Shown: positions 2,502 to 47,402 of the stretch, piece by piece
Numbering within the stretch: the stretch's first letter is position 1
How the letters are laid out: each line of letters begins with the position of its first letter
Assembly (NCBI GenBank): GCA_031763025.1
Contig: JASSKH010000007.1
Coordinates: 12,010,454-12,074,453, forward strand
Source of the DNA: Macrocystis pyrifera
Lineage: Eukaryota > Sar > Phaeophyceae > Laminariales > Laminariaceae
Direction of reading: 5' to 3'
DNA: 64,000 nucleotides
Notes under the pieces: model-generated
Databases searched by the model: none
What the model was told of the DNA's origin: nothing
What the model saw: the letters and a program-made list of their open reading frames with translations, nothing else
Translations under genes and position numbers: made by a program

Positions 2502-3950
2502 TGTTTGACCGCGGCTATCGGCCTGGTAGTGATCGGAAGTGCCTTCTCTGCCGAGGGGGGGGGGCTCGTCCCGGTTCTCCGGCTTGCGGGTCCGCCCGCG
2601 CCGTCTTCATCGTTGCCGTCCAAGAACCCTTGCCGCATGTATCGGCCTCGACTATTAATAGGTTCGATCCTCATGCCCCACGGCCACGAAGGGGAAAAGA
2701 AGAACACACCCGGTGGGTTGCAGCTGTGTGCCAAACGCAGTCCACGACTGCAAATAGCAAGTAACTGGTGTGTGAGGAAGGTCGTCTCAATGAAGTCGGC
2801 GGAAAGCCACACAACGAAGCTGTTGCACGACAAACCACGATGATAACGCGATGCGGGGAACCACCGCGGACGCTATTATTCTGTTAACACACACTGCTGC
2901 TGAGGTGCTGGTGATCGGTCGCAGCACTACGAGAAGGAACACCATCTCCGGTCCCCAGCAGGTCGGAAGAACTGGTACTCATGTAGAAATGCAGGCTTTC
3001 TTCAATAGGGTGCATGTTCCGAGCAGAATTAGCAATGTTCGGGCCTGACTCATGACGTAGGCCAATCACACACGCTAAAACCAACCAAATTGTGACAAAA
3101 TTCGTACGCTGATTGGATGATGGCTTGATGACATGCTAATTCCGCCGCCGATCGCAACACGGCACAGCGCCTACAGCAGCCGAAGCGCCTCACAGCAGAT
3201 AGAAGCTCTCGATAGAGGAAGCACCTGACGACCGCGCAGCGAGCAGCTAGCTGCTGCGACAAGCAGCAAGCACGCCGCCAAATCAGGTGATGCCACTGGA
3301 CAACCCCGAGACTGGAGACACAGATCACAGCAGAAGGAAGTAGAGGAAGAAGAGTGCGATGCGATGGAAGCTTGACAAGAAGCTGTTGAGCGAGAACCCA
3401 AAAAGCCAAAAAAATGTACCAGGTACCTGGTATAAACCAGAGGCAGGGCCACCTCGACACCCCGACAGCAAGCATGGTATATATGCATCGGTTGGAACTC
3501 GTACGATCACAAGAACTAGCTATATGTCGTTGCTGCTGTTATTGCAGCGTGTGTGCTGCATTGTCGCAAAGAGAGAGAGCCTACTCCCCCAAATCCGAAC
3601 GTCGATCGGCGAGAAGAGACGAGGCAGGCAGGGACTTTGGGAAGAGTCGGGGCGGAATTGTAAGGACCGTTGGGACATAAATATGAAGATCAAACGGTCG
3701 TTACATTATTGCCCAGAATGGCACGTGCGTATCATTCGGGGTCGTGCATGGCTGGGGATCCCACATGCTGCAACGAATTGAGGTGATTTAAATACCTACC
3801 ACCTGTACCAGGTATGATGTAGCTCTACACAAGATCTTTCGAATGTGGCTATTTCCAGCTTCGTATGCGCTCGTGGTGGTGGCGTCGCAGCAGAGAGCAT
3901 ATGGCACCGGCAACAATGAAACAACTCGAAAACATTAGCGACCCTGTATA
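2502..3950. other. Intergenic, no gene recognised
   Basis: This is the 5' side of the transporter exon and beyond. Only short unsupported frames are present on both strands. A copy of the palindromic GGTACCTGG-type word that recurs through the window lies at 3418-3432. I see no RNA gene or mobile element ends here. Confidence 0.5.
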
Positions 3951-4078
3951 CTAGTAATTGGTGGTAATGAGGCGCGACCTCAGCAATACCTGCAGTAGTC
4001 ATATCTGCGATGCATCATGCACAACATTTGTGCTGAACCAACACGAACGAACATCTACTGCTGCTGTACCTACTACCT

Positions 4079-4399
4079 GAATCCGGCGTCCCCGGTGGCT
4101 TGGTAGGTGGTCCGCGAGCCTATCAAGATCAATTTCGTGAGTTCGAGTCTCACCGAGTGCACGCTCACATAGGGACTTTTTCTTGCATAAAATTGATTAG
4201 CGGAAAGCGCGAGAGCGTGAGTTAGCTGTACATTCGATGAAAATCGACGAGCAGTGGGAATGCTGAACCCTATGCGCGATAAAAACTAAAGGCACGTACC
4301 GGGGGGGGAGAAGGGACGACACCTGTGACCACGGCTTGTCCAGAAGATCGTCGAGGGTAAAACCTCCTACGAGTGGGCTGGAAAGTAAAAGTGATGATG

Positions 4400-4427
<28 letters not shown>
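4079..4427 (+). mobile_element. SINE copy 1, tRNA-like head and poly-A tail
   Basis: The 5' head has a near-consensus RNA polymerase III A box (TGGCTTGGTAG, 4096-4106) and a B box core (GTTCGAGTC, 4141-4149), 45 bases apart as in a tRNA. The T-arm is perfect: GTGAG, a 7-base loop, CTCAC. The acceptor and anticodon stems do not pair, so this is a tRNA relative and not a tRNA gene. A body of about 240 bp follows, then 28 A residues at 4400-4427. The matching position in tandem copy B (near 7372) lacks the whole insert, which shows it is an insertion. A second, 5'-truncated copy lies at 46512-46741. No clear target duplication is visible for this copy. Confidence 0.78.
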
Positions 4428-4430
<3 letters not shown>

Positions 4431-4539
4431 GCCGTCGTTGGTGAATCTCATAACCGTAAATATTCTTGGCATCATATATATCCTGCTCTTGAAAAACACA
4501 GACAGCATAGCAGTACGGACACACCTGTAACAAATACAA

Positions 4540-5850
4540 GGCACTGGATTTCGTGTGCCCGAAGACGGAAAATAAATAATTCTCTCTATTTCCAGTACGA
4601 AATAATTAAATTGAAATTTTGTTCTCCCCGAATCCGGAAAATAAATAATAAGCTAGCTATTATACGTTCAAAAACGCAAGGTGAATGAATGTACTTGTGG
4701 CACAAAAAAAAAAGTCACAAATGGAAAAAAAAAGCGCACACACACTCACAACTTTTATTGAAATAGTTTTTGTCGTGTGTATCCTGGTATTTCCACCTCG
4801 AAATCCGGCATAATAATTTGAAGACGAAAATATGTACTACTGCTGTGTGACCACAGAAGTTATTACTTGTAGTCGTAGCGTATCTCTCGGGAATTCAAGA
4901 ATCGGCACAGACACTGACTGGTTGTGCTGGATGTCGACGGGTGGAAAGAACAAGACGACAAAATAAATTGCCCCAATTTCAATTTAATTATTTCGTGTGC
5001 CCGAAGACGGAAAATATTTCGTGTGCCCGAAGACGGAAAATAAATAATTCTCTCTATTTCCAGTACGAAATAATTAAATTGAAATTGGGGTCAATTTATT
5101 TAATTGTTTTGGTCAGATAGCATTTCCGAATCGAAAAATAAATATTTACCGAAAGGTTCCTCGAAGATTTTATATATATATATATTTATAAGGAACTAAG
5201 AAAACACGTCATCTGTGAGTTCAACCGATATATTTGAATAATCAGTCGAACGAAAAAAAAAAAACGCAGGGTCTAATGCGGGTCAATACATGCAAAAACC
5301 GTTTCGCAGAGCGAATCCAACAACAGCATGCAAAAGAGTACTGTGATTGTCATATAAAAGAAGCGGGGAAGCAGGAACGTGGCGGTGAATCAAGCCGTGC
5401 GTTGAAGTTAGTACCAAGATGCAAGCTTTTTATTACACGCACGTCAAAGAGTCAATATAGAATAATACCAGGTATTATATATCGTACTGGAAATAGAGAT
5501 AATTATTTATTTTCCGTCTTCGGGCACACGAAGAATTATTCACACTTATTAGAACAATGTTGCAGCAGGTCTTGACATACAAGTACGAATAAATTATTCA
5601 TTTTCTTATTCACACTTAGAACCATACTATTAAAACAACAGAAGTAACGAAAACAGCCGTAGCAAGAAATCCCCGGAAGAATTATTCACACTTATTAGAA
5701 CAATGTTGCAGCAGGTCTTGACATACAAGTACGAATAAATTATTTATTTTCCGGATTCGGGGAGAACAAAGACTGATTAAATTGCTATGGCATGTGCTGA
5801 ACCATTTTTTGCAACAATTATTTATTTTCCGGATTCGGGGAGAACAAATA
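4540..5850. repeat. AT-rich nested repeat cluster
   Basis: A unit containing CGTGTGCCCGAAGACGG and a following AAATAAATAATT stretch occurs directly near 4553, 4992 and 5020 and inverted near 5505-5530. A partner unit with TTCTCCCCGAATCCGG occurs directly near 4620 and inverted near 5750 and 5830. A 75-bp piece near 5530-5605 is repeated at 5675-5750. A (TA)n tract lies near 5170-5190. There is no coding potential. Comparison with copy B of the tandem duplication suggests these are insertions into copy A. Confidence 0.6.
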
Positions 5851-6060
5851 GACACACACCTGATGTATATTTTTTCTTTTTCTGTTTTTCCAACAGCAAG
5901 TGTTTTCTGGTTGAAATTCGGCATAATTAATTTGAACACGAAAAATCTGCATCTGAAAATATTTGTCCAACAGAAGGCGCTTCTTTCTCGTAGCAGGTGC
6001 CACCACTACTTGCTTGTACTGATGTACGACATCTATATACAGCAGCAGTGTTTCTCCAGC

Positions 6061-6230
6061 AACAAAAACAGCAGCAGCAGCAGCAGTAGCAGTGGGACGC
6101 ACGAGGCCAGGGTCAGCGTCGCTGTACGCTCGGCGGCTCGGCTTGTCAAGTTAACCCTTGAACCCTTTGTACACATCTACAGCAGCAGCAGTGTTTCTCC
6201 AGCAACAAAACAGCAGCAGCAGTAGCAGTA
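6061..6230. repeat. CAG/CTG triplet tracts
   Basis: Interrupted CAG runs occur near 6071-6092 and 6180-6228, and related runs near 7960-7985, 8235-8255 and 8520-8540. They sit at the same place within each repeat unit, next to the GAGGCCAGGGTCAGCG core, so they spread with the larger duplications and not independently. Confidence 0.7.
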
Positions 6231-7221
6231 GGACACACGACGCCAGGGTCAGCGTCGCTGTACGCTCGGCTTGTCAATCTCACCCCTTGAACCCTTTGTA
6301 CACGTAGTCGATTTTGTCCTGTGTTGGTTTTGAACTCGAAAAATCGGCATAATAATTTCAAGACGAAAAATCTGCACTCGACGTGCTCTGTCCAAGAGAG
6401 AACTTCTCGTAGCAGGTAGCAGGTGCCACCGCTACTACAGATGAAGTACGACATCTATCTACAGCAGAGCTTCTCCAGCAGCACAACAGCAGCAGCAGTA
6501 GGACACACGAGGCCAGGTCAGCGTCGCTGTACGCTCGGCTTGTGTGTGAACCCTTCGTACATGTGTTTCCTGGTCCCGAACTCATAATTTGAAGACGAAA
6601 AATGTACAATCTGACGTGTGTCCAGCAGAGCTTCTTCTAGCAGTGCCACCACTACTACTACTGCTGTACAACAACTATTATACAACAGATACTCTCCTGC
6701 TTCTCAGTCCCCTCATCAGCAGGAGGGTGGGCCTGCAGCATGTCTCGGGGACATGACCCGAACGCTCGTTGCTGTGGACAGGCACAGTCTGCCTACCTAC
6801 GAGTACTCGTAGAGCTGTCGCTGGGTTTCAAAATATATAATGTGTCGTGGGTTCTGTGTTTTTTCAACATGGCCCAGCACCAACATGTGCCTACACACGT
6901 TGCCACACCTAGCTCGAGCTGCTGCGAACGACTTACCACCGCACCAGCACCAGGAGGTCTGTTTTGTGTGCGCGCGTCCACAGAGCCCGCCGGGACTGGA
7001 ATTGGTGCGGTGTGCGTCGAGGGCGGTGGTCAAACGTTGCCCAAAAAAATGTTGAATCACACACACACACACACCCCACCACACACACACACATACAGAG
7101 AAACTCAAAACAAGGCACCCCACGCTCGTATCCGAGCCGCTATGAAGAGGCTTTTTTTTTCTTGGAAAATTCCAAGAAAAAAAAGGCTCGCCCGCTTTTT
7201 GGGCGCTTCGCGCGCCTCATT

Positions 7222-9257
7222 ACTAGTAATTGGTGGTAATGAGGCGCGACCTCAGCAATACCTGCAGTAGTCATATCTGCGATGCATCATGCACAAAACA
7301 TTTATTTGATTTGTGCTGAACCAACACGAACGAACATCTACTGCTGCTGCTGCTGTACCTACTACCTATACGCCGTCGTTGGTGAATCTCATAACCGTAA
7401 ATATTCTTGGCATCATATCCTGCTCTTGAAAAACACAGACAGCACAGCAGTACGGACACACCTGAAACAAATACCAGGTACTGGATTTTGTCGTGTGTAT
7501 CCTGGTATTTCCACCTCGAAATCCGGCATAGTAATTTGAAGACGAAAATATGTACTACTGCTGTGTGACCACGGAACTGGCTGTCGACGGGTGGAAAGAA
7601 CAAGACGACAAATAGACACACACCTGATATTTTTCCGTTTTTTTTTTTTCCAACAGCAAGTGTTTTCTGGTTGAAATTCGGCATAATTAATTTGAACACG
7701 AAAAATCTGCATCTGAAAATATTTTCCAACAGAAGACGCTTCTTTCTCGTAGCAGGTGCCACCACTACTTGCTTGTACTGATGTACGACATCTACATACA
7801 GCAGCTGTGTTTCTCCAGCAACAAAAACAGCAGCATCAGCAGTAGCAGTGGGACGCACGAGGCCAGGGTCAGCGTCGATGTACGCTCGGCGGCTCGGCTT
7901 GTCAATCTAACCCTTGAACCCTTTGTACACATCTACAGCAGCAGAAGTGTTTCTCCAGCAACAAAACAGCAGCAGCAGTAGCAGTAGGACACACGACGCC
8001 AGGGTCAGCGTCGCTGTACGCTCGGCGTGTCAATCTCACCCCTTGAACCCTTTGTACACGTACTCGATTTTGTCCTGTGTTGGTTTTGAACTCGAAAAAA
8101 TTCGGCATAATAATTTCAAGACGAAAAATCTGCACTCGACGTGCTCTGTCCAAGAGAGAACTTCTCGTAGCAGGTAGCAGGTGCCACCGCTACTACTGAT
8201 GATGTACGACATCTACAGCAGAGCTTCTCCAGCAGCAAAACAGCAGCAGCAGTAGGACACACGAGGCCAGGTCAGCGTCGCTGTACGCTCGGATTGTGTG
8301 TGAACCCTTTGTACATGTGTTTCCTGGTCCCGAACTCATAATTTGAAGACGAAAAATCTACAATCTGACGTGTGTCCAGCAGAGCGCAAAATAATTTCAA
8401 GACGAAAAATCTGCACTCGACGTGCTCTGTCCAAGAGAGAACTTCTCGTAGCAGGTAGCAGGTGCCACCGCTACTACAGATGATGTACGACATCTACAGC
8501 AGAGCTTCTCCAGCAGCAAAACAGCAGCAGCAGCAGGACACACGAGGCCAGGTCAGCGTCGCTGTACGCTCGGATTGTGTGTGAACCCTTCGTACATGTG
8601 TTTCCTGGTCCCGAACTCATAATTTGTAAGACGAAAAATCTACAATCTGACGTGTGTCCAGCAGAGCTTCTTCTAGCAGTGCCACCACTACTACTACTGC
8701 TGTACAACAACTATTATACAGCAGATACTCTCCTGCTTCTCAGTCCCCTCATCAGCAGGAGGGTGGGCCTGCAGCATGTCTCGGGGACATGACCCGAACG
8801 CTCGTTGCTGTGGACAGACACAGTCTGCCTACCTACGAGTACTCGTAGAGCTAGCTGGGTTTCAAAATATAATGTGTTGTTGGTTCTGTGTTTTTTCAAC
8901 ATGGCCCAGCACCAACATGTGCCGACACACGTTGCCACACCTAACTCGAGCTGCTGTGAACGACTTACCACCGCACCAGCACCAGGAGGTCTGTTTTGTG
9001 TGTGCGCGTCCACAGAGCCCGCCGGGACTGGAATTGGTGCGGTGTGCGTCGAGGGCGGTGGTCAAACGTTGCCCAAAAAAATGTTGAATCACACACACAT
9101 ACACGCCTCACCACACACACACACACACACATACAGAGAAACTCAAAACAAGGCACCCCACGCTCGTATCCGAGCCGCTATAAAGAGGCTTTTTTTTTCT
9201 TGGAAAATTCCAAGAAAAAAAAGGCTCGCCCGCTTTTAGCGCGCTTCGCGCGCCTCA
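7222..9257 (+). repeat. Tandem duplication, copy B
   Basis: This is the second copy of the block starting at 3951, in direct orientation and immediately adjacent. It keeps the pre-insertion arrangement at the SINE site and at the AT-rich insertion sites of copy A. Near 8390-8560 it has its own extra partial repeat of the unit starting with an AATTTCAAGACGAAAAATC word. No gene was recognised in either copy. Confidence 0.75.
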
Positions 9258-9448
9258 TTATTATCGAGAATGCCTGCGCAAGCATTTTTTTTTTTTTTAT
9301 AAATTTTGAAATACGTCAGCTGTGAGTTATTGGAAAAATTTCCTTTTTTTTTCGCCTCCCCAGGCCCCACTATTGAAAAATTACTAACCTCCCATAAAAA
9401 AAGGGGCAAATGCCAAAATAAGGTATACCTGATCCGTTTGAGCCAAAA

Positions 9449-9924: not shown

Positions 9925-10202
9925 TGTTAAGATCCCGGGTTGCGGGACACTTTGTATCCCTGGACAGGTCTGCCTTTTAAGTCGGTAAACATTGCACTCA
10001 CATGTGTTGTTTGCTTAGCTATAGAAGAAGAGCAGTTTTATTCCTTTCGTGCACGCGGAGACTGAGACCAAGCTCGTGCTCCTCTGGAAAACCCCTAGTT
10101 TTCCATCTAAGATACGCCTTCCAAGTACTACAAATACGTTCCCAGTGACTAAACCCAGGTAGTTACCGGTCTTTCAATCTCATACAAGACCATATCTTAA
10201 CA
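9925..10202 (-). repeat. 3' LTR of the gypsy element
   Basis: The 278-bp LTR begins TGTTAAGAT and ends ATCTTAACA, giving perfect 9-base terminal inversion. It differs from the other LTR at one base that I can see, T versus G in the TTACCGGTCTTT / TTACCGGGCTTT segment near 10170. TTCA precedes it. Confidence 0.95.
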
Positions 10203-10733: not shown

Positions 10734-11480
10734 TCAGCTATCCACGGCGGCACCTCGAGATTCATCTACGTTACGCTGGACCCCCCGTGTAAACGCGCTA
10801 GCCAAGTCAATTTGCAGACACCAAGAACCTCGTACAGCTCTCGTCGAAGTCGTGTAGCGCGCCGGAGAAAGGGGAAGCTTGATGGGTCCCGGGTCGTCCA
10901 AAAATCGAACCAAATATATTCCATCCGTCGGTGTAGTTGCGCTGATTTTCCCGAGCCACCACAGACCGTCGTCGCCCTTGTACCAAAAGTGGGCCCCGTT
11001 GGGAAGTACAGTGTTGCTGTATCGGCGGAGCCAATCGGCGTGCGATACGCAACCATAGCCGGGTGCTAGAAACCGCTCGCCGTTACTCCGGGAAAGCTCC
11101 CGTTGTGCCCCGCCAATTCTCATTCGGCGATACAGGCGGTTGGTTTGGCGGTGTTGGTTCGGAGTGCCGGCCCAGTAGCGCAAAATGGCGTTGCGAGAAA
11201 GCTGAAGGTCCATTTCCCGTTCCCAGGATGGCCGGGAAAGTCCCTTCCAGTGCGTCTCGTACATCACCGCGATGACGCCGCCTCGACCTCTAACCGATTG
11301 ATGTCCAGTAATCTTTTCCACTTCGAGTCGTTCAAGAGGGGTCGAAACGTCGTCCTCGGTGACGTGGTACGGAGGGGATTTCTTGGAGAAATTGTTGAGC
11401 ACGTATTGCGTCAACCCCGCAGGCAGATACTTCGGCATGTCGCCACGGTCGTGGGGGTTGGCACAGGGCTGCAGCGTTGA
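10734..11480 (-). CDS. Gypsy pol C-terminus: chromodomain plus unknown domain
   Basis: The frame is open from 11717 to 10734, but its first 75 or so residues are a shadow. The real part enters by frameshift near 11470, continuing the integrase C-terminal frame. It holds a chromodomain-like stretch (VEKITGHQSVRGRGG, then YETHWKGLSRPSWE, residues 132-184 of the open frame). Chromodomains in chromoviruses steer integration to marked chromatin. A further domain follows, with FWYKGDDGLWWLGKI and YLVRFLDDPGPIKLPL, which looks Tudor/SH3-like by its aromatic pattern, an inference only. The same tail recurs in relics at 37430-37612 and 62410-62670, so it is a family character. Confidence 0.75.
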   Translation of the reverse strand, partial: STLQPCANPHDRGDMPKYLPAGLTQYVLNNFSKKSPPYHVTEDDVSTPLERLEVEKITGHQSVRGRGGVIAVMYETHWKGLSRPSWEREMDLQLSRNAILRYWAGTPNQHRQTNRLYRRMRIGGAQRELSRSNGERFLAPGYGCVSHADWLRRYSNTVLPNGAHFWYKGDDGLWWLGKISATTPTDGIYLVRFLDDPGPIKLPLSPARYTTSTRAVRGSWCLQIDLASAFTRGVQRNVDESRGAAVDS

Positions 11481-12340
11481 ACAGATACGCGCCGGCGAGC
11501 CTCGGCGCCGGGCATATCGGAAGGAAGATCCAAATACAGGAGCTTTGCTCCGAGAGGAGATCCATCCGAGGTATCTGCAGAGGAGCAGGGGCCAACTGCT
11601 AGAACTTTGTAGGGGCCCGTCCAGTTTAGGGAGAGTTTGGCCTTGAGGACCTTGGCGTCCGTGTCTGGTTTCGCGCCCTGGCGGATGGTGGCCGCCGTAT
11701 TGTACACCCACACCCAACCACCAACGTCAAATTTGGGGACCGGACGCAGAGCGTCGGAGAGGGCGGAGTTGCGGCGGTTCACGCGAGCGACAGTGAGGGC
11801 GTGGTGTTCTCGAACGATGTCGTACGCGCGCTGCTGACGGTCCGTCGCCAAGTCGCAGTAGGCGAGATGGTCGCGGGCCAAACTCTGGTGGCCGGCGACT
11901 CCTGCACGTTCGAAAATCGTGAGAGGGAGGCGTGGGAGCCGACCCATATGTACCTCGTTGGGAGCCAGACCCGTGGCGGCACTAACGGAATTGTTGTACG
12001 CAAATTCGACGTGAGAGAGCTGCTCATCCCAGTTGTTTTGGAGCTCGTTGATGACCATTGCCAACATCTGGGCCATCGTGTGGTTTACACGTTCCACCCC
12101 ACCGTTGCCGTTTGGGTGGTAGGAGCTTGTGGCAATTTTTCGAACCCCGAGAAGCTGATATACCGCATGCGAAAGCTTGGAGCAGAACTGGAGGCCGTTG
12201 TCCGAGAGGATGCTGCGCGGGCACCCCCAAAGAGGGATATACCGGTTGATGAGAATGCTAGCCGTGCCCTCAGCGGTGAACTCTGCCGCTGTGACGGCGT
12301 ACGTCAGCCCGGCGGCTGAAACGATCAGTGAAAAGCAAGA
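11411..12340 (-). pseudogene. Gypsy integrase catalytic core and C-terminal region, broken
   Basis: DDE integrase core. The first Asp is in VSIDYFGPLPV at the end of the frame to the right. The second is in SILSDNGLQF (about 12200) and the Glu in NGNGGVERVNHTMAQ (about 12090). A beta-rich C-terminal part follows (LNWTGPYKVLAVGP, about 11600). Two lesions are visible: an in-frame TAG at 12342-12344, just before the LLFTDRFSRR segment, and a one-base frameshift near 12300. A third frameshift near 11470 separates it from the chromodomain frame. In the family this enzyme joins the cDNA ends to host DNA. Confidence 0.85.
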
Positions 12341-12341
12341 T

Positions 12342-13739
12342 CTAGGTATTACCTCGAGGCGTCACCGGGAGGGGGCCGAAGTAGTCGATGCTGACGGCGA
12401 TGCCGGGCCCTTCTGGCAAGGGCAACGTGATGGAGGGCCACCGGACCGTCTGCCGCGACGTTTTTCGTGCCTGGCACTTTAAGCAGTTGCGTAGCCACCA
12501 CCGAGTGCAGATGCTCATGCCGATCCACCAGTAGAAACGTTCGAGCATACGTAGGGTGCGCGCGGTTCCTAGGTGGCAGGAAGCCGTAGAATGGCAAGCC
12601 TGCATGACCCAGGGGCGCATGAGCAGCGGAACATAAATGCGAATAGGCTCGTCGTTCAATAAGTAGGCCGTACGGCCCACCGGGCGTGGCGTATCCAACG
12701 CAGGAGGGGGAGACGGCTGTCGGACAAGTAGAACGATGCCCGCGTCAGTGGTGTGCAAGCGGCCTTTGGCGGCCAGCTCTTGAACTTCCGAAAGGGGAGG
12801 TCGCTGGTGGGAAGGGAAACCTGGTAAGAAGTCGTCTGGCAAAACTTCCGGTCGGCCAAGGGCTATGTAGCGCATGGCGGCATTGCTCGCGGGCTCAGCC
12901 TGTTGTTCCCGAGCCCAATCGGCGTGCGAGTAGCGCGCTGCGGAATCACCGAACTGAAACTCGGCAGCTGCGCCGAGTGCGTCCAAGTTGGTCGAGGTGA
13001 CGGGAGGTGCGTCAGTTGGCGGCGGAAGTCGTAAAAGAGGAGTTCCCACGGGCTCGGTGCGGTCGCGGCCGGACGGGATGGGTACCGTCGGGACGGACGA
13101 GGCGGCAGGAGTCGGGGCCAAAACGACGGGTGCGGGCGGTCGTGGCCGTGGGGCTCGCAGCGGGGTGGTAGCGCGCCGGGCTGATGGTCTAGGGGTCCCG
13201 CCGGGCCCGAAGCCATAATCAACAGCAGGCGGCACGGCGCCAGCGGCGGCGGCTGTTCGTCGGCGCGTCCGCGATGAGATGCGGCCTGAAGACGGCAAAA
13301 CGTTCGGAGGCGCCGGGTTGCCAGGCGGCGATGGGGTAGACGCGGCCGGATCAGTGAGCACGGCGGAATCTGTTCCCTGTAAAGTGCTCGTCGGGGGAGG
13401 AGCATGCTGGGCGACAATCGTCGCTGCATCGGGGGCTTCTGCGGAGCCCTGGCCTGAAAGGGAAGACGCGGCCGGAGCAGTGCTCACGACGGAATCTTCG
13501 ACCTGTAAAGTGCTCGTCGGGGGAGGAGCATGCTGGACGACAATCATCGCTGCAGCGGGGGCTTCTGCGGAGCCCTGGCCTGAAAGGGAAGACGCGGCCG
13601 GAGCAGTGCTCACGACGGAATCTTCGACCTGTAAAGTGCTCGGCGGGGGAGGAGCGCGCTGGGCGACAATCATCGCTGCAGCGGGGGCTTTTGCAGAGCC
13701 CTGGCCTGAGAGGGAAGACGCGGCCGGAGCAGTGCTCAC
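12342..13739 (-). CDS. Gypsy linker with 42-residue repeats and integrase zinc-binding domain
   Basis: The 465-residue frame opens with tandem repeats of a 126-bp unit (AAAGTGCTCG recurs at 13381, 13507, 13633 and 13759), giving a 42-residue Pro/Ala/Ser-rich repeat around APPPPSTLQVEDSVVSTAP. A low-complexity Pro/Arg-rich spacer follows. Then comes YSHADWAREQQAEP, which resembles VSHADWLRRYSN in the extra C-terminal domain, and then the HHCC zinc-binding domain (CHSTASCHLGTARTLRMLE, with CLKCQ) and the start of the integrase core. The long repeat-rich linker between RNase H and integrase is unusual. The open frame is preserved to the amber codon at 12342. Confidence 0.8.
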   Translation of the reverse strand: MSTAPAASSLSGQGSAKAPAAAMIVAQRAPPPPSTLQVEDSVVSTAPAASSLSGQGSAEAPAAAMIVVQHAPPPTSTLQVEDSVVSTAPAASSLSGQGSAEAPDAATIVAQHAPPPTSTLQGTDSAVLTDPAASTPSPPGNPAPPNVLPSSGRISSRTRRRTAAAAGAVPPAVDYGFGPGGTPRPSARRATTPLRAPRPRPPAPVVLAPTPAASSVPTVPIPSGRDRTEPVGTPLLRLPPPTDAPPVTSTNLDALGAAAEFQFGDSAARYSHADWAREQQAEPASNAAMRYIALGRPEVLPDDFLPGFPSHQRPPLSEVQELAAKGRLHTTDAGIVLLVRQPSPPPALDTPRPVGRTAYLLNDEPIRIYVPLLMRPWVMQACHSTASCHLGTARTLRMLERFYWWIGMSICTRWWLRNCLKCQARKTSRQTVRWPSITLPLPEGPGIAVSIDYFGPLPVTPRGNT

Positions 13740-13830
13740 GACGGAATCTTCGACCTGTAAAGTGCTCGTCGGGGGAGGAGCGCGCTGGGCGACAACGTCG
13801 CTGCAGCGGGGGCTTCTGCAGAGCCCCGGT
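13370..13830 (-). repeat. 126-bp tandem repeat (four units) in the pol linker
   Basis: Four direct units with starts at 13381, 13507, 13633 and 13759, in phase with the reading frame. The units are nearly identical, which suggests recent expansion or homogenisation. Confidence 0.9.
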
Positions 13831-15504
13831 CGCCCCCGGAGGGTACGACAAAAACCGAAGCGAAAGCGGCGGTGGCGGGGGGTGAAAAATCCCCCAAGCC
13901 AGGACGGCGGTCGACGGTGGCGACGGAGGCAGATACACGAGCGACGAATCTCCCCGAAGGAGCAGAGAGGTCGTCAATCCTCATACGTGGCCCGTGTGTG
14001 CGAAAATCGCGAAAATCCGAAGGGGCGAAAGGTAGCCCACCCAAGACGGCACTTTCACTGCGGGACACCAGCCCACCCAAACCGACACCAGGGGTCGGCG
14101 AAGAGCGAGTGTGAAGCCCGCAGGCTCGGATGAGGAAGATACCACCGTCCTCGACGGGGTTGAGGCAGCTAGACCCACTGCGGTCGTGTTCGGTGGCGGG
14201 CTCTGGCAAGCGGGAGAGGAAGTCAGCATTTCCGTTGGCGCTGCCCTTGCGGTACTCGAGGGTGCGAACGCAGTGAGGAACTCGAGCCACCGTTGGACTC
14301 GCGCGTTGTGGTCCCCTACTTTGGCGATACTCTCAAGTGCTTTGTGATCCGAAAATATTCGAAACTTCGTGCCCCACAGGTAACCCCGGAGTCGTTTGAT
14401 AGCACAGACAATGCTGCCAGCTTCCAGGTCCAACGGTGTCCAGTGCATTTCGGAATCGAGGGTAGCGCGGCTGATATAAGCAATGGGCCGTACCGAGCCG
14501 TCCGGTTGTTCTTGTTCGAGCGCGGCACCGAAACCGTCGATGCAGGCGTCGCAGTACACGTGGAAGGGGCGGGAGCCGTCGGCTACGGCATCCCAGTCAG
14601 GGAAGACCAAAATCGGTCGGGCCGCGAGCTCGGCGAGGATCTGGCGGACGATAACTTCCATAGCCGGCGTGAAGACATACTTGACCCCCTTCCGGAGAAA
14701 GGCGGTGAGAGGACGTATCCGTTTGGACAGGTCGGGCAGGAATTTGCGATAATATCCTACGCCGCCCATCAGGGCACGGACCTGCTTGAGGTTCTTGGGC
14801 ATGGGCATTTTCAGCAAGGCCGAAACTTTTTCCGCATTAGGGCTTATACCCGCGGGCGAAATAGAGTGGCCCAGAAAATTGGCGTCCGTGGCGCCGAGGC
14901 GAGCCTTCGAGGGGGAGAGCTTGAGGTTGTGTTTGCGCAGGCGTTCGAAGAGGGCTCGTATCGTCTTGACGTGGGCCGTCGGGTCAGAGTCGAAAACAAT
15001 CACATCATCAAGGTAGGCCGCCACCTGTGCCAGGCCTTTAATGACTTCGTTAATCACTTTGACGAACTAGCCGGGCGAAGCACTGCTGCCTTGGGGCATG
15101 ACGAGCCACTCGTAAAGGCCCGTGGGAGTGCAGAACGCCGTAGGAGAGACGGTGTCCTTGTGCGCGGTAATCTGGTGGAACGAGGAGACCAAATCGAAGA
15201 GGGAAAACACCCGTCCCTTCCCCAGGGAGTCGAGGACTTGGTCCACGCGAGGGATAGGCAGCTGGCTGAGTTTGCTGATCTGGTTGAGTTTTTTGTAGTT
15301 CACGGTGATCCGAACGCCACCAGACTTTTTCGGGATGACCACCAGCGGGCTCGAGTACGGAGAAGTCGAGTGTTGGATCAGACCAGCCGCTAAGTACTGA
15401 TCCAAGGTGGCCTCTACTTCCTTGGCCAGGATGGGGTTGATGCGGTGCGGCCTGGACGTGACAGGAGCGCTTCCTTCCGGGACCGAGATCACGAAAGGCA
15501 TCAA
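13736..15504 (-). pseudogene. Gypsy reverse transcriptase and RNase H, broken
   Basis: Synthesises cDNA from the element RNA and removes the RNA strand. RT landmarks in order: IPKKSGGVRITVNYKKLN, then VFSLFDLVSSFHQI (motif A Asp), YEWLVMPQGSSASPG (motif B), AAYLDDVIVF (YLDD catalytic box) and FLGHSISPAGI. RNase H shows YCDACIDGFGAAL, then LDLEAGS and FSDHKALESIA (Asp, Glu, Asp). An in-frame TAG at 15067-15069 sits where the family normally has Trp after ASPG, and the frame resumes at 15057. A one-base shift near 14268 moves the RNase H end into the frame running 14290-13736 (TLEYRKGSANGNADFLSRL). Without suppression the protein would be truncated. Confidence 0.92.
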
Positions 15505-17303
15505 CGAGCAGGAACCAAATTCCGACTTGGACTTCGAGAAAACGTCAGGAAATTCGCAGAGAACGTCCCCCAGCTGTTCAATGACCGCAGGGGTCCAGCC
15601 TGTGCCGTGGAGATCAAAGCCACCTCCCGCAGATGCGCCGGCAAGCGTGCCCAGATGCGCAGGAACGAAGCGCGCTGTTCTGAGGTCAAACGCTCAAGCA
15701 GTGCAGGCGAGGGCGAGGCTGGAGCTGCGAGGGGGGGGGGAGTAACTGCTGAAACCGGACACACCTCACCTAGTCCGGAGGGAGGGCTGGGGTCTCGGTT
15801 GTCCTGCTGCAAAACGTCCAGCGGAACGCTCAGCAGTGGGGCGTGGGCGACGCCGAGGACATCCCCCGGCTCGAGAGCCGCCACTCCAACGAGGGGAAGA
15901 ACCTGCCGTCCGGAGGAGACGAAGTGCTCCTCGACCGAGGGTAGGTCGGGCTGGGGCATCATGTCGACCAAATAGTGTCCAGTGAGGGCCGGGGAGCCAT
16001 CGCTCCGAACCAAATTGACAGCAAGCAGCTGGGGAGCGTCTGACAGGGTGACGCCTGCTGCGCCCTCGTAGCGTAGATGGAAGCCTCCACCCGAAGCGGC
16101 GGAGTCGATGGCGTACACGGACATGCCTGTCGGGGCGTGGTGAACTAACTCCAGCTCGCCAAAAACGCGTTGATCAGACGGCCGAGGTGGCAGAGAGCGG
16201 TAGGAGAAACTATTAAAGCGCATCCAGCTGTCACGTCCCAATAATACAGTATGCTGCATCACCGATGGGGGAACCATGCAGGCCCAAACTGCGAGGGAGC
16301 AAGTAGGGTCATTTTCTCGAAAAAATTGGACGCTTAGGCGCACGCTCGTCGAAGCCTTCAGAGGGGCCGATTCGCCAAAACCCCCCCAAGAACGAGGGGC
16401 GCCGTTCTGCTCGCACGCGAGGGAGGCCGCACCAACAGAGTGCATGCGATCCAAAACATCTCGCCGGATGAAAGTCTGCGGGGAGCCAGTGTCGAGAAGC
16501 GCCACGCAACCAAAAGGTGCAAGAACGCCAGCTCCGCTGTGAATCGCGATTTTCGTGGTAAAAGAGGCGTCATCGAGGGTAATGGTGCCCCCGACGAGGC
16601 AGGGGCCGTGTTCTGGCAGCGCGAGGGAGGGGTCGACACTAGGTGCGACAGCCAAAATCTCCGGGCTGTGATCAGCCGGCGCGTCAGAAAAATGGGTCGA
16701 AAACTCCAAAGGAGGACCTGGGCAAGCGCGGGCCACGGCCAAAGGGCGGGGCGGCGCTGGTGTAATGTCATGAATTCCGTCAGGTCTGGTTGGGGTGCAG
16801 AATTGGTGAGAGGAGGCGGGGTGTGCCAACCCGGCCTCACTTGATCGGAGGGTGTCGCGAATGGCGGAAAGAGCTTTACCGAGCAAATTTTTCCCACGCC
16901 ACCGAGAGGGGTCGTGAGCTTCGGGGTCGTCTGCCCGCAAACCGATGCCCCACACGGCATCAAAAGGGCTGGCTTCAGCCAAAATTTTGGTGCCAGTGCT
17001 CAAAAGGTGCTGCTTCATGACCGGGTTCTGCGAGAATTTGGCAAAATTACCAGCAAGGACGGCGTCTTCCCGAACACGGTCCCAGATAGCGCAGTCGAAA
17101 TTATGCACGCCTCGACCGCGGCGTTTGTGCTCGCGTGGGTCTGGCGAGGCCATAATCCGCTCCGCTGAGCCGTGGTCCTGGAAAAGGCGAGCCTTTTCAG
17201 CCATCATATACTGCTCCGCGCAGGAATATGATACATCGTCGACGACAAAAGACGAGGGAGACCACTGCGAAAAATAAGAGGGGGGCTGCCAGAACAGTAC
17301 CAC
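15501..17303 (-). CDS. NADAR domain fused to retroviral-type aspartic protease
   Basis: A 600-residue uninterrupted frame. Residues 1-157 are a NADAR (YbiA-like, DUF1768) domain: VLFWQPPSYFSQWSP, then YSCAEQYMMAEKARLF with the conserved Glu, IMASPDPREHKRRGR, FDAVWGIGLRADD and NLLGKALSAIRDTLR. NADAR proteins act on ADP-ribose-linked or riboflavin-pathway N-glycosidic bonds. A Pro-rich spacer is followed by an aspartic protease with ALLDTGSPQTFIRRD (Asp about 271) and HTVLLGRDSWM. The first displayed codon is GTG; upstream in the same frame the sequence continues to the gag stops (TAG at 17400), so NADAR is probably made as part of a gag-pol readthrough product. A frameshift near 15620 leads into RT. 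The domain call is strong; its role in the element is unknown. Confidence 0.9.
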   Translation of the reverse strand: MVLFWQPPSYFSQWSPSSFVVDDVSYSCAEQYMMAEKARLFQDHGSAERIMASPDPREHKRRGRGVHNFDCAIWDRVREDAVLAGNFAKFSQNPVMKQHLLSTGTKILAEASPFDAVWGIGLRADDPEAHDPSRWRGKNLLGKALSAIRDTLRSSEAGLAHPASSHQFCTPTRPDGIHDITPAPPRPLAVARACPGPPLEFSTHFSDAPADHSPEILAVAPSVDPSLALPEHGPCLVGGTITLDDASFTTKIAIHSGAGVLAPFGCVALLDTGSPQTFIRRDVLDRMHSVGAASLACEQNGAPRSWGGFGESAPLKASTSVRLSVQFFRENDPTCSLAVWACMVPPSVMQHTVLLGRDSWMRFNSFSYRSLPPRPSDQRVFGELELVHHAPTGMSVYAIDSAASGGGFHLRYEGAAGVTLSDAPQLLAVNLVRSDGSPALTGHYLVDMMPQPDLPSVEEHFVSSGRQVLPLVGVAALEPGDVLGVAHAPLLSVPLDVLQQDNRDPSPPSGLGEVCPVSAVTPPPLAAPASPSPALLERLTSEQRASFLRIWARLPAHLREVALISTAQAGPLRSLNSWGTFSANFLTFSRSPSRNLVPAR

Positions 17304-17495
17304 CCGCTCCGTTGTATACTCGAGAGTAGAGTCAAAAACCGACGGTGCCGAGTCGTCGGTGGCCGCAGTTGCGGCGTGTGGGGGGGGGAGTGTGCTTCTC
17401 TAAGAACACTGAGCCCCTGGTGCACGAGGCGAGTCCGGTTCCACGTATACTGGCTCTGTGTCACCATTGCCCGTAGGCAAAAAATCGCCAGAAGG

Positions 17496-19934
17496 TTACC
17501 TTGCTGCGCCCGATGATCTCTGTCCTGGACCAAAGGGGGCAGGGGGCTCTGAGCCCGTTCTGTTTGACGAGAGCTGCGATTCTTCCGAATTTAACGTGTA
17601 TGCTGTCCGGTTGATCTGACCGGAGGCCGTGGAGTCACCACTGGCTCGACGGACAGTGCCAGGTTTTTCCTGTTCCACTGGCGCCGAAGGAGCGCTGCGC
17701 ACATGGAGTGGCGTGCGCGAAGACGAAAGAGGGCCTGCAGACCCTGTAGACGTCTTCAAGAACGGTGCTCGGGTGGGGGGCAACAAAGGGTCCACCGGAG
17801 AGAGCTTCCATCCTGTAAACCTGGTGGGGAAGGGGGACGAGGTAGCTAATCTTGTCGACTCCTCCTTAATAGGAAAAAGGGTGGAGCGGCCACCGTTATT
17901 GCGAGGAAACTCCGAGTCGAGCTTCAACCGAGATCTCGGGGTTTCGGTGTTTGCCTTCCCGCACCTCAAACCGACCGCCACCGCATGGCCGGGAGGTGTA
18001 GGAGGGGGACACCCTAGCTGAAAAAAAACGACGCGCGACGGCGCGACACCCGTCGTGTTGCGCGGCGCGTAGTTTGGGAGAGAGGCGTTTATCGCGCCTG
18101 CTCTCGTGCCCAGGTTGAGGGGAGCGGCGTTTGAGGCGCGGGCTCCCGACGTCGGGGAAGGCGCCCGAGGGCTCCCCGGAAAAAGCTGTGGAGCTGAGTC
18201 GCTGCGTCGGTCCGAAGTACGGAGTAACGCGCGGGGCGGGAGCGGAGTACTGAGCGAGCCTGGGACGCGAGCATCTTGTGAAATCAAGGTTTTTTTTCCT
18301 GACAATGCTGGCGGCGGGCGGTCAGGAGAAGCCGAACCGCCGTCGACCTGTCAGTTACCGGTACGGAAGGTGCCAGGCTGGCGTCCATTCGGGTTTCCGC
18401 CCGAGGTATGTGAGGCGCCGTAGCGAACCCCCGAGACGGGAGCCGGGACGGAAGAGGCAGGGGCGGTCGAACCACCATGATGGCCGGGGTGGGACTGCTG
18501 GTGTCCTCGTGCCGCGTGTGTGTGGTAGCCATCACCTTGTCTGTGTTGCTGACCCTGACCGTGATGTTGCCCACGCGAGGGGCCGGGGCGACGCCTGTGT
18601 TTCTGCTGGTTGTATTTTTTCGGTCGTGAATTGTTCTCGCGGCGGTGTCTGATAAAGCGTTCTTGCCAACGACGGAACGCCTCGCCGTCGTCGCCGAGCG
18701 TTCCAAGGTCGGGGTTCAAGATACCACTAAGGTTTAAAAAAGGGTGCCTACACTGACGAAGAGTGTGTGTCTTCGTGACAGTTTAAACAGCGTCCTCGGT
18801 TTTCGCTAAGGGCGGCTGCGCAAGCTGACGATGAAAGTAGGCCGCTCCAGAGGGGAGGGTCCTCGGTCTGGATGGACATGCAAACGGCGTGAACTTCGGC
18901 ATAGTGGTGTTCTTCAAGGGGTCAGCAGTTGGAAGAGGTGTCAAGCCACGGGTCGAGGCAGTCAGGGATGGATTGTGGACATTCATCACAAGCGGATTAT
19001 TGCGCGATCCCGTCTGCCAAGAAGGCGACTGGGGAAGCGTCCAGCCCTGGCCGCGACCAATATTGGCGGGCCGGGGCCCCGACGGGGCGGATGACCGCGC
19101 ACCCGACGAAGAAGCAGGCAAAGAAAAATATTTTTCGCCGTTGACGGCAGGTGTCTTATTATTCGCAAGAGTCTCGAAAGCTAACCACATGGCGTCCAAA
19201 GTGCCGAACGGCCTCGAAACCGTAGCCAAAACTCCCGGGTACAGCGTCGGCATCAAGCTAGGGTACTGCTCGTTCACTGCCATCCGAACTACCTCCAAAA
19301 CGACCTCCACCCCCGGTGCCAAAACACGCTCAGTCCCCGTCGCTGCAGACACCACCCCTCGCAAGGCACGACTAAAATCGCAAAAAGGGGTCCCGTTTGC
19401 CACGCCAAAATTATGCAACTTGGTGTAGCTGGCCCCCGTGTTGGCGCGGTCAAAGTGGTTGCTCAGCAACCTCAGGAGGAGCGTGAACGCCTCCGGTCCC
19501 GACGATCCTGCTGCGAGGGCGCGCGACACCTGTCCAAAAAAATCATCCATCAAGGTAGTGAGAGGGGCGGTCGTAGGCTTGTCAGGCGTGATGGCGCGCG
19601 CGAAGGATTTCTTGAGAGGGTACTCCCAACCGGGTATCCAGTTAGTAGAACTAAGGCCTTCATGGCTGCCATCGTTGCACATCATGAGAATATCAGAGGT
19701 GGAGGCCTTTACCGAACGCATGAGTTGCTGTGCGGCCTCGCAAGGGTCGATCGAGGAGGGGAAAGGCAAGACAGAAATGCGCGAAATATCCTTCAGTCCC
19801 AGGCGTTTGTACGCCCGTTGTACGTCGGCAGCGTGCTGTTTTGCGGCGGCAGCGGCGGCGGAGTCGATCGCCGAAGTTCGGTCGTGAGCAAGGTTAGATG
19901 ACACAGGCAAGGCGCGGTCATCGGGCATGGTCAA
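17496..19934 (-). pseudogene. Gypsy gag: capsid-like and basic nucleocapsid-like part
   Basis: One reading frame runs from 19934 through the NADAR-protease frame (4.4 kb in phase), interrupted by stops at 18783 (TAA), 18351 (TGA), 17496 (TAA) and 17400 (TAG). The first 383 residues (MTMPDDRALP start) contain a helical, capsid-like region with LLRLLSNHFDRANTGASYTK and FGTLDAMWLAFETL. After the first stop comes a very basic His/Arg/Gln-rich stretch (RHRRENNSRPKKYNQQKHRR) that could bind RNA in place of a zinc knuckle; no CCHC motif is seen. The third part is Ser/Pro-rich with no domain. Either the copy has collected stops without losing phase, or some are read through. Confidence 0.7.
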
Positions 19935-19969
19935 ACGACCAAGACGCGCGGCGGAAGAAGCAACTTCAG

Positions 19970-21157
19970 TCAGCGCGAGGGGATCACTTGCCTCTTGCTG
20001 ATGGCGTGCTTCGCTGGAACGGGGGCTCTGGTGTTGCCGTCCGAGGAAGAGCTGGGGGAAGTAGCTCGACCAGAGTTGTCCCGCGGGCCGTACCGACCGT
20101 CACCCGATCGCTCCTTCCCCTTCCACCGGTTTTTTCTCCGTCCAGTCCCGTTGCGCCGAGACGAACTGCCACCCGTTTCCCCGCCCGAGCCCCGGCGGAG
20201 CCTGCTGTCCGGACCGGTCGGATCCCCTCCAAACCTCGTGCGCTGGCGGGCCTGGTCGCCAGCGCGGCTGCGAGCGCGGTCTCCGGCCACAGAGCTGTCG
20301 CCAGTTCCCCCGTGGCCGCTGGAGGAGGTGGGGCGGTGTCCAGCTTCCGGGATCGAGTAAGGGGGGGGGGGGGGGTCCTGGGGGGCAGCACGCTCCCGCC
20401 GCCTGCAATGAAGCTGGTACGCGGCCGGTCTCGGCCATTGAACCGTGGCGGAAGACGCTTCATGGGCCCTCCGTAGGCTCACCACCAGAGCCATTGTGTA
20501 GGCCTGGAGCTGTTGGTCCGACCAGGAGACGTCTGACATTCCCAGCCAAGCGTCGTGGACCGAGAGGCCTTCGGCCGGCAGCTCGCGTCGGAGGCGGCGA
20601 GCTGCAGAGACCACCAGAGCCGCCTCCTCGGGGGGGAAGCACGGGTTGGGCTCGGCCGCCATGCAGGCGACACTCCCCTGTAAAAAATCCAGGTCCCCGG
20701 GGCGCTTGGTCCGGGCGTCGATCGCGAGCACAGCGGGGGAACACGGGTCCGTGGGGCCAAGGCCGGGGGCTGGAGCGGCCTTCGCGGTGGTGGAGGCAAG
20801 TGGAAGGCTCTCCGTTGATGCCCTCGTCTGGCCGGCCCGGCTGGTCGCGGAGGAAGCAGCCGCCCGGGCAGCCCGCAGCGCCTCACTGGCCCGAGATATG
20901 GAGTCTCGCGCACAAGAGGCGGAGCGAGCGGCTTCCTCGGAAGTCGTGGCGGCAGCCGTGGCAATGGCGGCGGCGGCCGTGGAAGCGCGGGCGGCAGCTG
21001 CAGCCTCGAGCTCGGCCGATACACGCGTCCGTGCTCGATGGCTAGCCGTTGTCGCCGAGGCAGCCCCAAGGGCCTCGGCGGAGGCCAAAGCCTGCTCGGC
21101 TGCGAGGACGTCGGGGTGGGACTGCTGGGGGGCCCGGAGCCTCAGCGGCTCGGTCAC
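19970..21157 (-). CDS. Gypsy gag N-terminal Ala-rich protein
   Basis: A 395-residue frame, first after the 5' LTR. Residues 20-110 are Ala/Arg/Ser-rich with heptad-like spacing and could form a long helix or coiled coil. The middle (residues 150-250, around FPPEEAALVVSAARRLRREL) is more ordered. The C-terminal third is Arg/Gly/Ser-rich and disordered. It ends 36 bases before the next gag frame, in a different phase, so either two proteins are made or a frameshift separates them. I recognise no named domain. Confidence 0.55.
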   Translation of the reverse strand: MTEPLRLRAPQQSHPDVLAAEQALASAEALGAASATTASHRARTRVSAELEAAAAARASTAAAAIATAAATTSEEAARSASCARDSISRASEALRAARAAASSATSRAGQTRASTESLPLASTTAKAAPAPGLGPTDPCSPAVLAIDARTKRPGDLDFLQGSVACMAAEPNPCFPPEEAALVVSAARRLRRELPAEGLSVHDAWLGMSDVSWSDQQLQAYTMALVVSLRRAHEASSATVQWPRPAAYQLHCRRRERAAPQDPPPPPYSIPEAGHRPTSSSGHGGTGDSSVAGDRARSRAGDQARQRTRFGGDPTGPDSRLRRGSGGETGGSSSRRNGTGRRKNRWKGKERSGDGRYGPRDNSGRATSPSSSSDGNTRAPVPAKHAISKRQVIPSR

Positions 21158-21315: not shown

Positions 21316-21593
21316 TGTTAAGATCCCGGGTTGCGGGACACTTTGTATCCCTGGACAGGTCTGCCTTTTAAGTCGGTAAACATTGCACTCACATGTGTTG
21401 TTTGCTTAGCTATAGAAGAAGAGCAGTTTTATTCCTTTCGTGCACGCGGAGACTGAGACCAAGCTCGTGCTCCTCTGGAAAACCCCTAGTTTTCCATCTA
21501 AGATACGCCTTCCAAGTACTACAAATACGTTCCCAGTGACTAAACCCAGGTAGTTACCGGGCTTTCAATCTCATACAAGACCATATCTTAACA
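21316..21593 (-). repeat. 5' LTR of the gypsy element
   Basis: The 278-bp LTR begins TGTTAAGAT and ends ATCTTAACA, followed by the TTCA duplication. It is near-identical to 9925-10202. Confidence 0.95.
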
Positions 21594-38349: not shown

Positions 38350-40517
38350 ATGGTCTAATGTGTGCGTCCTTCACATTAAACCGTTATTTTATCCAGCACA
38401 ACAATCAGTATCCGTACCGATTCTTCCATCTAAGAGAGATAAGCCCTGTGGTCACAAAACTACGCCACAGAGATACTACATTGTTATGCAGTGAGCAGAG
38501 TAGGCAATGCAATGCCATGTCATCGTACTGGATACGACAGGCACGACATACACATTCTATAAAATAGAGAGAACGGAAGAAACAAAAAAAAACAAATCGA
38601 AAGAAAAACATAATAATGATAAAAAAAACAAAATGGCGTGCCCCCCCGTGGGAGATGTGGCAGACAATACAGAACGAGCTAAATAAACAAGTCCACTATA
38701 TTAAACACATACACGGAGTAATACTAAGAACCAATAGAAATAACAGGCAAACCGACGCGCAACAAAACAGAACAAAAACGAAAAGCATCCTCCAAGCAGC
38801 CGCAGCAGTTTGTGGTACGAGTAGCATAAACAGCTTTCACGTACTACTGTAGTTAGTCTGGTACCTTGCTACCCTGTCTCACATCTCTGTTCTGCTTTCG
38901 TCAATCATGCCCCACACCCGGAGAGGATGCGTCCGACGATACGAAACAAACAAAGTAGGCTCGTCATCCACCCACGCCACAAGACTTTTCTTTCATAAGG
39001 ACAGACTAAAGAAAGATAAAAAATCACATAAGAAAATCACGGAGGGTCAAAGCGCAAGAAGAAAAAGAAAACAAATACATATCACGTTCGAACCAGCTGA
39101 AGCAGTTGGTGGCACGAGTAGCATAGACATGTTCTACTTACGGTTCGGCCTGGTGCCTTGCTGCTCTGTCTGCCGTCTCCTTCCTACTTTCGTCCCCCGC
39201 GGTTTCCCTTATTACTCCTCCTGATGCCCCCCCTGCCCCCATTCCCTTGGTGGGGTCTCCTTCCACGCCCTCCCTGCCCCCATTCCCTTGGGCTTCACCC
39301 ACGGCGGATGCGCGGCGCTGCCTGCTCAGCTGTGCTTCCTCTTCGTGCCACCTCACCGTGTACCGTTCGGCTGCTTCAAGGACCCCTCGGTACCACTTCC
39401 CCGCCTTTTTTGCTGCAGTGGACCACAGCACGGTCTCAACTCCAAACACCAAGGGGGAGAGTTTCGTGGATCCTTCGGTGGCTCGGAACTCCCTAAGGTC
39501 TTCGACTATGCATCTGTGCCAAAATTCAAACTATCCGCCAGGTCTCAGGTTCTCTCCACCAGCCATCGTCCCGAACATTACCCGACTGGGTAATCGCTCG
39601 TTGCTTTGCCGTGCCACGGCCCCCGCAAACAAGAGGCGCCATTTACGAATGATCGTTTCGAAGCTCTCGCAAAGTGTCATCTTGAGGGCGTTCACGTACG
39701 ATAGGTTGGTGTGGACGGTACGAAGTCGGTGCTGGAAGTCAATGACTCGCAAGAGGATTTGGTGGTGAGCCGTTCGAAGCTTGGCGAAGTGTTCCGCTCT
39801 GAGGGTCCACATTACACACCAGTACAGCAGGGTCTCAATCACCTCGGCTTTCAGCATTCGAACTTTCAGACTAAGCGGGGCGACTGTCCTATCATACAAC
39901 TCCGGGCCGAACCGTTTGAGGCATGCCCGCATGAGACGGATCCGTCGGTCGATTTCGAGCGAGAAGTCGGTGCTCTCGTGGATAATGCCGCCTAGGCATA
40001 ATAGCTAGGTCGTCTGCTTATACCTCTGGCCTGCTGCTTCGATGGCGAGCGGTGGGGCGAGGGTTGTCTGGTCCGGTGTTCGTAGCAACATTGTCTCTGT
40101 CTTATTTTCCGGTACCGTGAGGCCTGCTGCTTCGAAGACAGTCACGATGACTGCCATCATTTTAGGGAGTCCTTCAGTCGACTTCGAGACCATTCCTGCG
40201 TCATCGGCGTACAACATGCCCCATGCAGCCGTTCGCACGCATGCCAACAGCTTCTGCTCCTCTGTTCCGACTACTCCAGCATCATTGAGTCGAAGCAAAT
40301 CCCTTACGATGGCTTCGTCTTTGCTGAAGCGCACCAACACAACGTGTAACGCAGCAGCGAAGAACACGTCGAACAGTAATAGTGATAAAACGCAGCCTTG
40401 CCACAGCTCCTGCGACATCAAACCATTCCGAGTGCTCGCCGTCATCCGCGTGGACGTCGATCGCTGCTGTTTCTTACCTTGACCTGTGCATCTTACACCG
40501 AATTTCTTGATTGGCAT
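38350..40517 (-). mobile_element. LINE copy 1 (5'-truncated), minus strand
   Basis: Contains the RT C-terminal half (40517-39138) followed in the sense direction by about 800 bp of 3' UTR. The 3' UTR and protein end are matched in inverted orientation by 41740-43100, and the protein by the LINE at 58.7-61.8 kb. Confidence 0.75.
39138..40517 (-). pseudogene. LINE reverse transcriptase, C-terminal 460 residues with two stops
   Basis: One phase throughout. RT motif B (QGCVLSLLLFDVFFAA), motif C (LYADDAGMVS), then GLTVPENKTETMLLRT. A TAG at 40005-40007 replaces the Gln of the QTTQFLYLGG segment seen in the 58-61 kb copy. The post-RT region reads LKVRMLKAEVIETLLYWCV, IRKWRLLFAGAVAR and VMFGTMAGGENLRPGG, then TAG at 39531-39533, then the tail with HRCIVEDLREF and AAKKAGKWYRG. 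The RT N-terminus and endonuclease are missing. Such enzymes copy LINE RNA at a nicked target. Confidence 0.82.
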
Positions 40518-40619
40518 GAGGAACCGAGCCTCAAGTTCATACTGGCAGGTTCAAGCACGAAGCCCAAAATTGCGTCAGTCACGAATGCCGCATGCAGTAG
40601 TTATGTCACCTACTTGGTA

Positions 40620-47399: not shown

Positions 47400-47402
47400 T
47401 TA

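Follow-up and report, generated by a model that had tools for sequence, protein, structure and literature searches.

A stretch of 64,000 nucleotides from the brown alga Macrocystis pyrifera (assembly GCA_031763025.1, contig JASSKH010000007.1, positions 12,010,454 to 12,074,453 of the forward strand; "the window" below) carries on its minus strand a long terminal repeat (LTR) retrotransposon of 11.67 kb, in which a NADAR domain stands between gag and the aspartic protease. The two LTRs (5' LTR at 21316..21593 and 3' LTR at 9925..10202, both minus strand) are direct repeats of 278 nt with a single mismatch, have TG...CA ends and are flanked by the target-site duplication TTCA; a sequence containing TGGCGTC adjoins the 5' LTR. 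Used as a query against the own genome, the LTR found at least 38 further near-full-length matches (277-278 nt, 98-100%) and two short ones, a lower bound since 40 of 1868 candidates were scored in this search, which returned 42 rows including the two of the window. The order on the minus strand is gag, NADAR, protease, reverse transcriptase (RT), RNase H and integrase zinc-binding domain, followed by weak matches to an integrase core and a chromodomain, and by this domain order and its Pfam matches the element is classed as a Ty3/gypsy LTR retrotransposon.

All parts of the polyprotein lie on the minus strand. The gag open reading frame (ORF; 18783..20099, 38% identity to the gag of the public protein P0114, E 3e-47) is closed by a stop and has the same phase as the NADAR domain (16845..17294, PF08719). 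The latter belongs to an open frame of the ORF list (15501..17399) that runs from NADAR through a linker into the protease region (15636..16637), which gave no Pfam protease match and was identified by the motif LLDTGS (16482-16499) and by homology to 111 proteins. Further downstream follow the RT (14860..15336, two ORF pieces split by a stop, PF00078 with E 7.3e-11 and 5.1e-09, YLDD at 15004-15015), RNase H (14266..14574, PF17917, E 1.4e-29), the H2C2 zinc-binding domain of the integrase (12459..12629, PF17921, E 1.2e-12), an ORF piece with the integrase core (11411..12361, weak rve match with E 0.036, 72% to the integrase part of genomic copy L157) and a chromodomain-like segment (11172..11324), the PF00385 match of which is weak (E 0.0025, below the curated cut-off). 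A reading of the sequence alone had described the NADAR frame as continuing in phase with gag; the phase is indeed shared with the gag ORF from 20099 onwards, but the frame is not open throughout, with in-frame stops at 18783, 18351, 17496 and 17400 between gag and NADAR. Likewise, the pol region 3' of NADAR-protease is scattered over several ORFs, including the stop within RT. Low LTR divergence together with these frame breaks fits either decay of this copy or transposition of an already broken template.

The PF08719 profile matched residues 36-185 of the ORF 15501-17399 over profile positions 2-163 of 163, with 172.3 bits (cut-off 35.1) and E 1.3e-50, and LLDTGS follows in the same ORF, so that the complete NADAR domain directly ahead of the protease, first noted from the sequence, is borne out by the profile search. 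The Glu segment, WGIG and NLLGK named in the same reading are all present. There is no second NADAR in the window, the next tblastn match having E 0.7. An AlphaFold2 model built with 40 sequences (predicted local distance difference test score, pLDDT, 94.6; predicted template modelling score, pTM, 0.88) was compared by Foldseek and VIA-align; among the matches listed, 8bau, the Phytophthora nicotianae NADAR with ADP-ribose, came first and YbiA second, with the rest far behind. The domain is thus predicted to have the YbiA fold.

Searching the own genome (537 Mb, 223 contigs) with the NADAR profile gave at least 150 matches, all above the cut-off, a lower bound because 150 of 1264 candidates were scored. 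From these, 70 loci were analysed, namely the best 30 and 40 chosen from those listed without an inner stop. A protease region lies 3' of NADAR on the same strand, not always in a common frame, in 69 of the 70 (L042 is without it). The NADAR is full-length and free of stops in 59, a share that is a product of the choice of loci and no genome-wide estimate; in the remaining 11 a stop is present or the profile is covered incompletely. The 59 copies form family A (31, including the window copy) and family B (28), with 50% protein identity in the one pair compared. Elsewhere the fusion also occurs in open frames. Copy L158 has NADAR, protease, RT and RNase H in a single open frame and an integrase match in another, while L157, more distant from the window copy (RT 70% identical), has one open frame with NADAR, protease, RT, the first part of RNase H and integrase matches, its remaining RNase H and its gag matching other frames. 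In the public protein P0114, gag, a CCHC knuckle and most of NADAR share one frame of 1054 amino acids. The longest listed frame around a NADAR spans 2349 codons, and the element proteins that bear organism names are from Ectocarpus (P0010, P0016).

Whether related elements lack the domain at this position was addressed with a query of the protease region only, for which 7996 candidates sharing most words were scored; NADAR is present in 73 of the 111 proteins found and missing from 38. (A count of 115/153, which adds proteins found through NADAR and the window ORF, is biased and was not used.) NADAR (about 153 residues) and linker (72 or more) need about 225 residues, and the 38 proteins have at most 152 residues ahead of the projected protease start, too short a stretch to hold both. 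Three of them have more than 100 upstream residues. In P0262 the first 84 are unmatched, and residues 84-150 align at 83-96% with the linker found in copies that do carry NADAR, which would fit a NADAR lying in a different frame; no trace of NADAR is seen in P0264 within the sequence present; and in the Undaria gene model P0329 gag is joined directly to the middle of the protease region, which may be a true deletion of NADAR. Apart from this possible case, none of the 111 proteins is a relative long enough to show absence of NADAR. A one-off insertion or chance is therefore rejected, given the many copies, the 73 of 111 proteins and the protease behind NADAR at 69 of 70 loci. NADAR is a standing, selected part of the Gag-Pol polyprotein in many copies and several families.

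Active-site residues named for the family (PMC11543638) were transferred by eye via the alignment. Among 74 element NADARs (73 public ones and the window copy), E45, K52, K75, R79, W89, E125, D130 and W133 are each conserved in 70 to 72, and in the 59 own-genome copies only 3/279 active-site cells are changed in family A and 4/252 in family B. The position of R93 is variable (Cys in 53, Arg in 15 of the 74), and it is Cys in 9/11 rows taken as bacterial, 4/11 of which bear organism names. F84 is Phe in 72/74, where the Phytophthora enzyme has Tyr, and position 86 is not conserved. The mark of the YbiA subfamily, a Glu at the charged position of the last strand, is present as E125 in 59/59 stop-free copies and in 71/74 element copies including that of the window. 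Judged by these alignments, the element NADAR is of the YbiA family and Glu type, with an intact-looking active site.

The ratio of nonsynonymous to synonymous substitution rates (dN/dS), which had been suggested as a check on the fusion, was computed pairwise by NG86 for the 59 NADARs and for the protease of 13 intact copies; the pairs are not independent. Between families A and B the NADAR ratio is 0.173 for 505 pairs, with saturation in the remaining 363 A-B pairs, and that of the protease is 0.222 over 42 pairs. Variants found in a single copy were further compared with shared ones, pooling families A and B (70 loci). The nonsynonymous/synonymous (N/S) counts for NADAR are 172/69 for singletons and 51/42 for shared variants (p 0.006), those for the protease 579/223 and 117/85 (p 1e-4) and those for the linker 122/39 and 27/22 (3.13 vs 1.23, p 0.007). 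For NADAR, family A alone gives p 0.012, and an earlier count, restricted to the distinct sequences of the 59, yielded p 0.007 pooled and 0.010 for A. Because the linker control behaves alike within families, a special constraint on NADAR is visible only between them, where identity is 43-63% for NADAR and 20-32% for the linker in 8/9 rows; the 43% belongs to P0253, whose NADAR starts at residue 1, and may be low. The exception is P0003, with a truncated protease (NADAR 67%, linker 61%). Taken together, purifying selection on the element NADAR is shown.

As to function, tested NADARs strip ADP-ribose from guanosine in DNA and RNA (PMC11543638, PMC11125620, PMC11833690), and among the hydrolase families tested only NADAR took ADP-ribose off RNA guanosine (PMC11833690). 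We propose that the YbiA-family NADAR between gag and protease of this Ty3/gypsy Gag-Pol acts as a guanine-ADP-ribose N-glycosidase on element RNA or cDNA, a proposal that in our estimate has an even chance of being right. The domain would be translated with Gag-Pol, enter the particle and possibly be cut free by the protease next to it; there it would take ADP-ribose off guanines in the genomic RNA of the element, in its single-stranded cDNA or in both, and so keep reverse transcription from being blocked by bulky adducts. Such adduct removal appears the likeliest job because published NADAR activity, the active site, the position in Gag-Pol and selection all point to it. The adducts might come from a host ADP-ribosyltransferase (counter-defence) or from another source (repair), and the data do not choose between these. 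The narrower version, in which the element packs an ADP-ribosyl-guanine N-glycosidase that clears host-made marks before or during reverse transcription, is tentative and on balance doubtful.

Several observations weigh against this proposal. The counter-defence role put forward by the sequence-only reading gained no support from the host genome, which gave 0 matches to DarT and only one, exon-sized match to poly(ADP-ribose) polymerase (PARP). E. coli YbiA acts on riboflavin intermediates (PMC11543638) and fails to rescue DarT1 toxicity (PMC11125620), and therefore membership of the family does not fix the substrate. Regarding selection, dN/dS is only 0.44 at dS 0.1-0.3 and 0.54 at dS 0.02-0.1, with the protease alike (0.45 and 0.53), and at dS under 0.02 it reaches 1.49 for NADAR and 0.98 for the protease, as expected if copies decay freely after insertion. 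The comparison of singleton and shared NADAR variants is non-significant in family B alone (p 0.24; earlier count p 0.31), and the linker shows the same contrast as NADAR, so that the within-family test does not single NADAR out.

Two other functions seem improbable to us, though each has something in its favour. NADAR could serve the Gag-Pol particle, or the handling of RNA, as a structural module that binds nucleotides or RNA and in which catalysis is secondary. Its place between gag and protease speaks for this, and the nematode trans-splicing protein SNA-3, with NADAR domains of its own, may be a parallel case. Against this, the two glutamates close to the scissile bond and the residues that bind the pyrophosphate are nearly invariant, beyond what a scaffold needs; SNA-3 with the corresponding residues mutated loses function too, for which its authors allow for folding effects. 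About equally unlikely is action on a small molecule, be it a host signal derived from NAD or ADP-ribose or a riboflavin-type intermediate. The riboflavin chemistry of YbiA (PMC11543638) speaks for it, as does the suggestion that diffusible ADP-ribose derivatives are the targets of phage NADARs (PMC9503650), whereas the NADARs of RNA-virus polyproteins are argued to target mainly macromolecular marks (PMC9503650) and a domain that is part of Gag-Pol is placed alongside nucleic acid. That NADAR is a functionless passenger, captured once, we regard as very improbable: copies do decay after insertion (singleton N/S about 2.5, dN/dS above 1 among near-identical copies), but the between-family dN/dS of 0.17, the depletion of shared nonsynonymous variants and the retention of NADAR in families that differ at about half of its residues argue against it.

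Whether the fusion had been described before was left open by the initial reading; it had, since a gypsy-NADAR fusion in Ectocarpus was reported in 2025 (PMC12477816). The present element is thus a further member of a described architecture, to which we add evidence on selection, on the active site and on kinship with algal proteins. By its description, the Ectocarpus element Gypsy-12_Ec32 and its kin resemble the element studied here, the named example having a C-terminal chromodomain, in a genome of 200.2 Mb as against 537 Mb here (PMC12477816). That article leaves the role open, suggesting RNA processing, and reports blastp matches outside Ectocarpus that are almost only bacterial, with possible horizontal transfer (PMC12477816); here, in contrast, the nearest non-element relatives are stand-alone brown-algal proteins, and selection was measured. 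Tx1 long interspersed nuclear elements (LINEs) of the Pacific oyster likewise carry a NADAR, but in ORF1 of a non-LTR element (PMC12477816), and the mollusc NADAR proteins in our trees fall outside the element-plus-algal group. The P. nicotianae NADAR (8bau), 33% identical, differs at Tyr84 (Phe in the window NADAR) and Asp86 (Cys), and its excerpted description does not present it as part of a retroelement. Nidoviruses, hepe-like viruses and picornaviruses, likened here by description, also have NADAR inside a replication polyprotein (PMC9503650), but are RNA viruses without a DNA stage, unlike the window element. Finally, the DarT1-NADAR toxin-antitoxin system needs a linked DarT and an Asp-type (BC4488) site, whereas the site here is of Glu type and the genome has no DarT match.

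In a 74-row tree a branch supported at 99/90 separates the element NADARs, together with eight stand-alone NADAR proteins, from the bacterial and mollusc rows; of the unlabelled rows, 9 are on the element/algal side and 39 on the other. The same grouping has 98/96 in a 48-row tree run without P0251 and 92/82 in a 49-row tree, in which this long-branch element row falls outside. Six of the eight stand-alone proteins are algal by their source names (Ectocarpus, Pylaiella, Scytosiphon), P0028 and P0174 having no organism. The trees thus put stand-alone brown-algal proteins closest to the element NADAR among non-element relatives, nearer than bacteria, among which the best relatives in genome records, Nannocystis and other myxobacteria, reach 54-56%. 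Direct capture from bacteria, which we also considered, is weakened by this grouping, although in one tree the support is only 92/82. On the direction of transfer between alga and element the evidence points both ways, and approximately unbiased (AU) tests rejected neither a single clade of element NADARs alone (p-AU 0.476) nor a grouping of the algal rows with one element group (p-AU 0.444). Algal rows stand among the element groups in the best trees, which leans towards element-to-alga. A Cys/His motif, found by regular expression N-terminal to NADAR in 5/8 stand-alone proteins and also in P0019, outside the clade, leans towards alga-to-element. An own-genome search for the stand-alone gene, with P0028 as query, gave matches of only 40-52% (115 rows) and none near the 81% found between algal kin, in a search where an intron-split gene would be outscored by element copies.

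Other observations concern these relatives and the remainder of the window. The Cys/His motif occurs in P0142, P0175, P0195, P0028, P0082 and P0019, four of the six with brown-alga names, and it received no Pfam name in the five proteins scanned (all but P0019). Bivalve NADARs (P0004 from Mercenaria, P0077, P0086, P0096, P0113) include one with two NADAR copies, and three bivalve NADARs form their own clade in the tree. Among 10 mechanically chosen ORFs neighbouring two Nannocystis relatives there was one 2-oxoglutarate (2OG)-Fe(II) oxygenase match and no ADP-ribosyltransferase. Phage relatives came from 673 records; in the 10 listed, the match (46-54%) is confined to the NADAR part. Between RNase H and integrase the window element has tandem repeats of 126 bp (42 codons; 13334..13826, minus strand, 3.9 copies, 93% matches by Tandem Repeats Finder, TRF); the same period occurs between RNase H and integrase in L158 (8590-8834) with fewer units, and L157 has other repeats. 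Outside the element, nested inverted repeats (I2, I3, I4, I6) at 38850-42587, 83-88% complementary and with arms about 2.3-3.5 kb apart, are perhaps an old DNA transposon or palindromic insertion. An inverted repeat at 46897-47400 has arms of 182 nt, 87% complementary, with 140 nt between them, and a duplicated block at 3935-9263 contains direct repeats about 1.76, 2.03 and 2.7-3.3 kb apart. An Rfam scan of the window gave no match.

A selected NADAR in the replication protein of a retroelement suggests a part for ADP-ribose chemistry in reverse transcription or in the life of the particle in that host, and the trees speak against direct acquisition from bacteria as the most economical account of the element domain. 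If the counter-defence version were true, brown algae would possess a hitherto unrecognised defence against retroelements by ADP-ribosylation of nucleic acids, which the element would counter by means of a domain akin to the zinc-finger-like NADAR proteins of the alga itself. The element provides a system in which substrate, writer and purpose of such chemistry can be tested.
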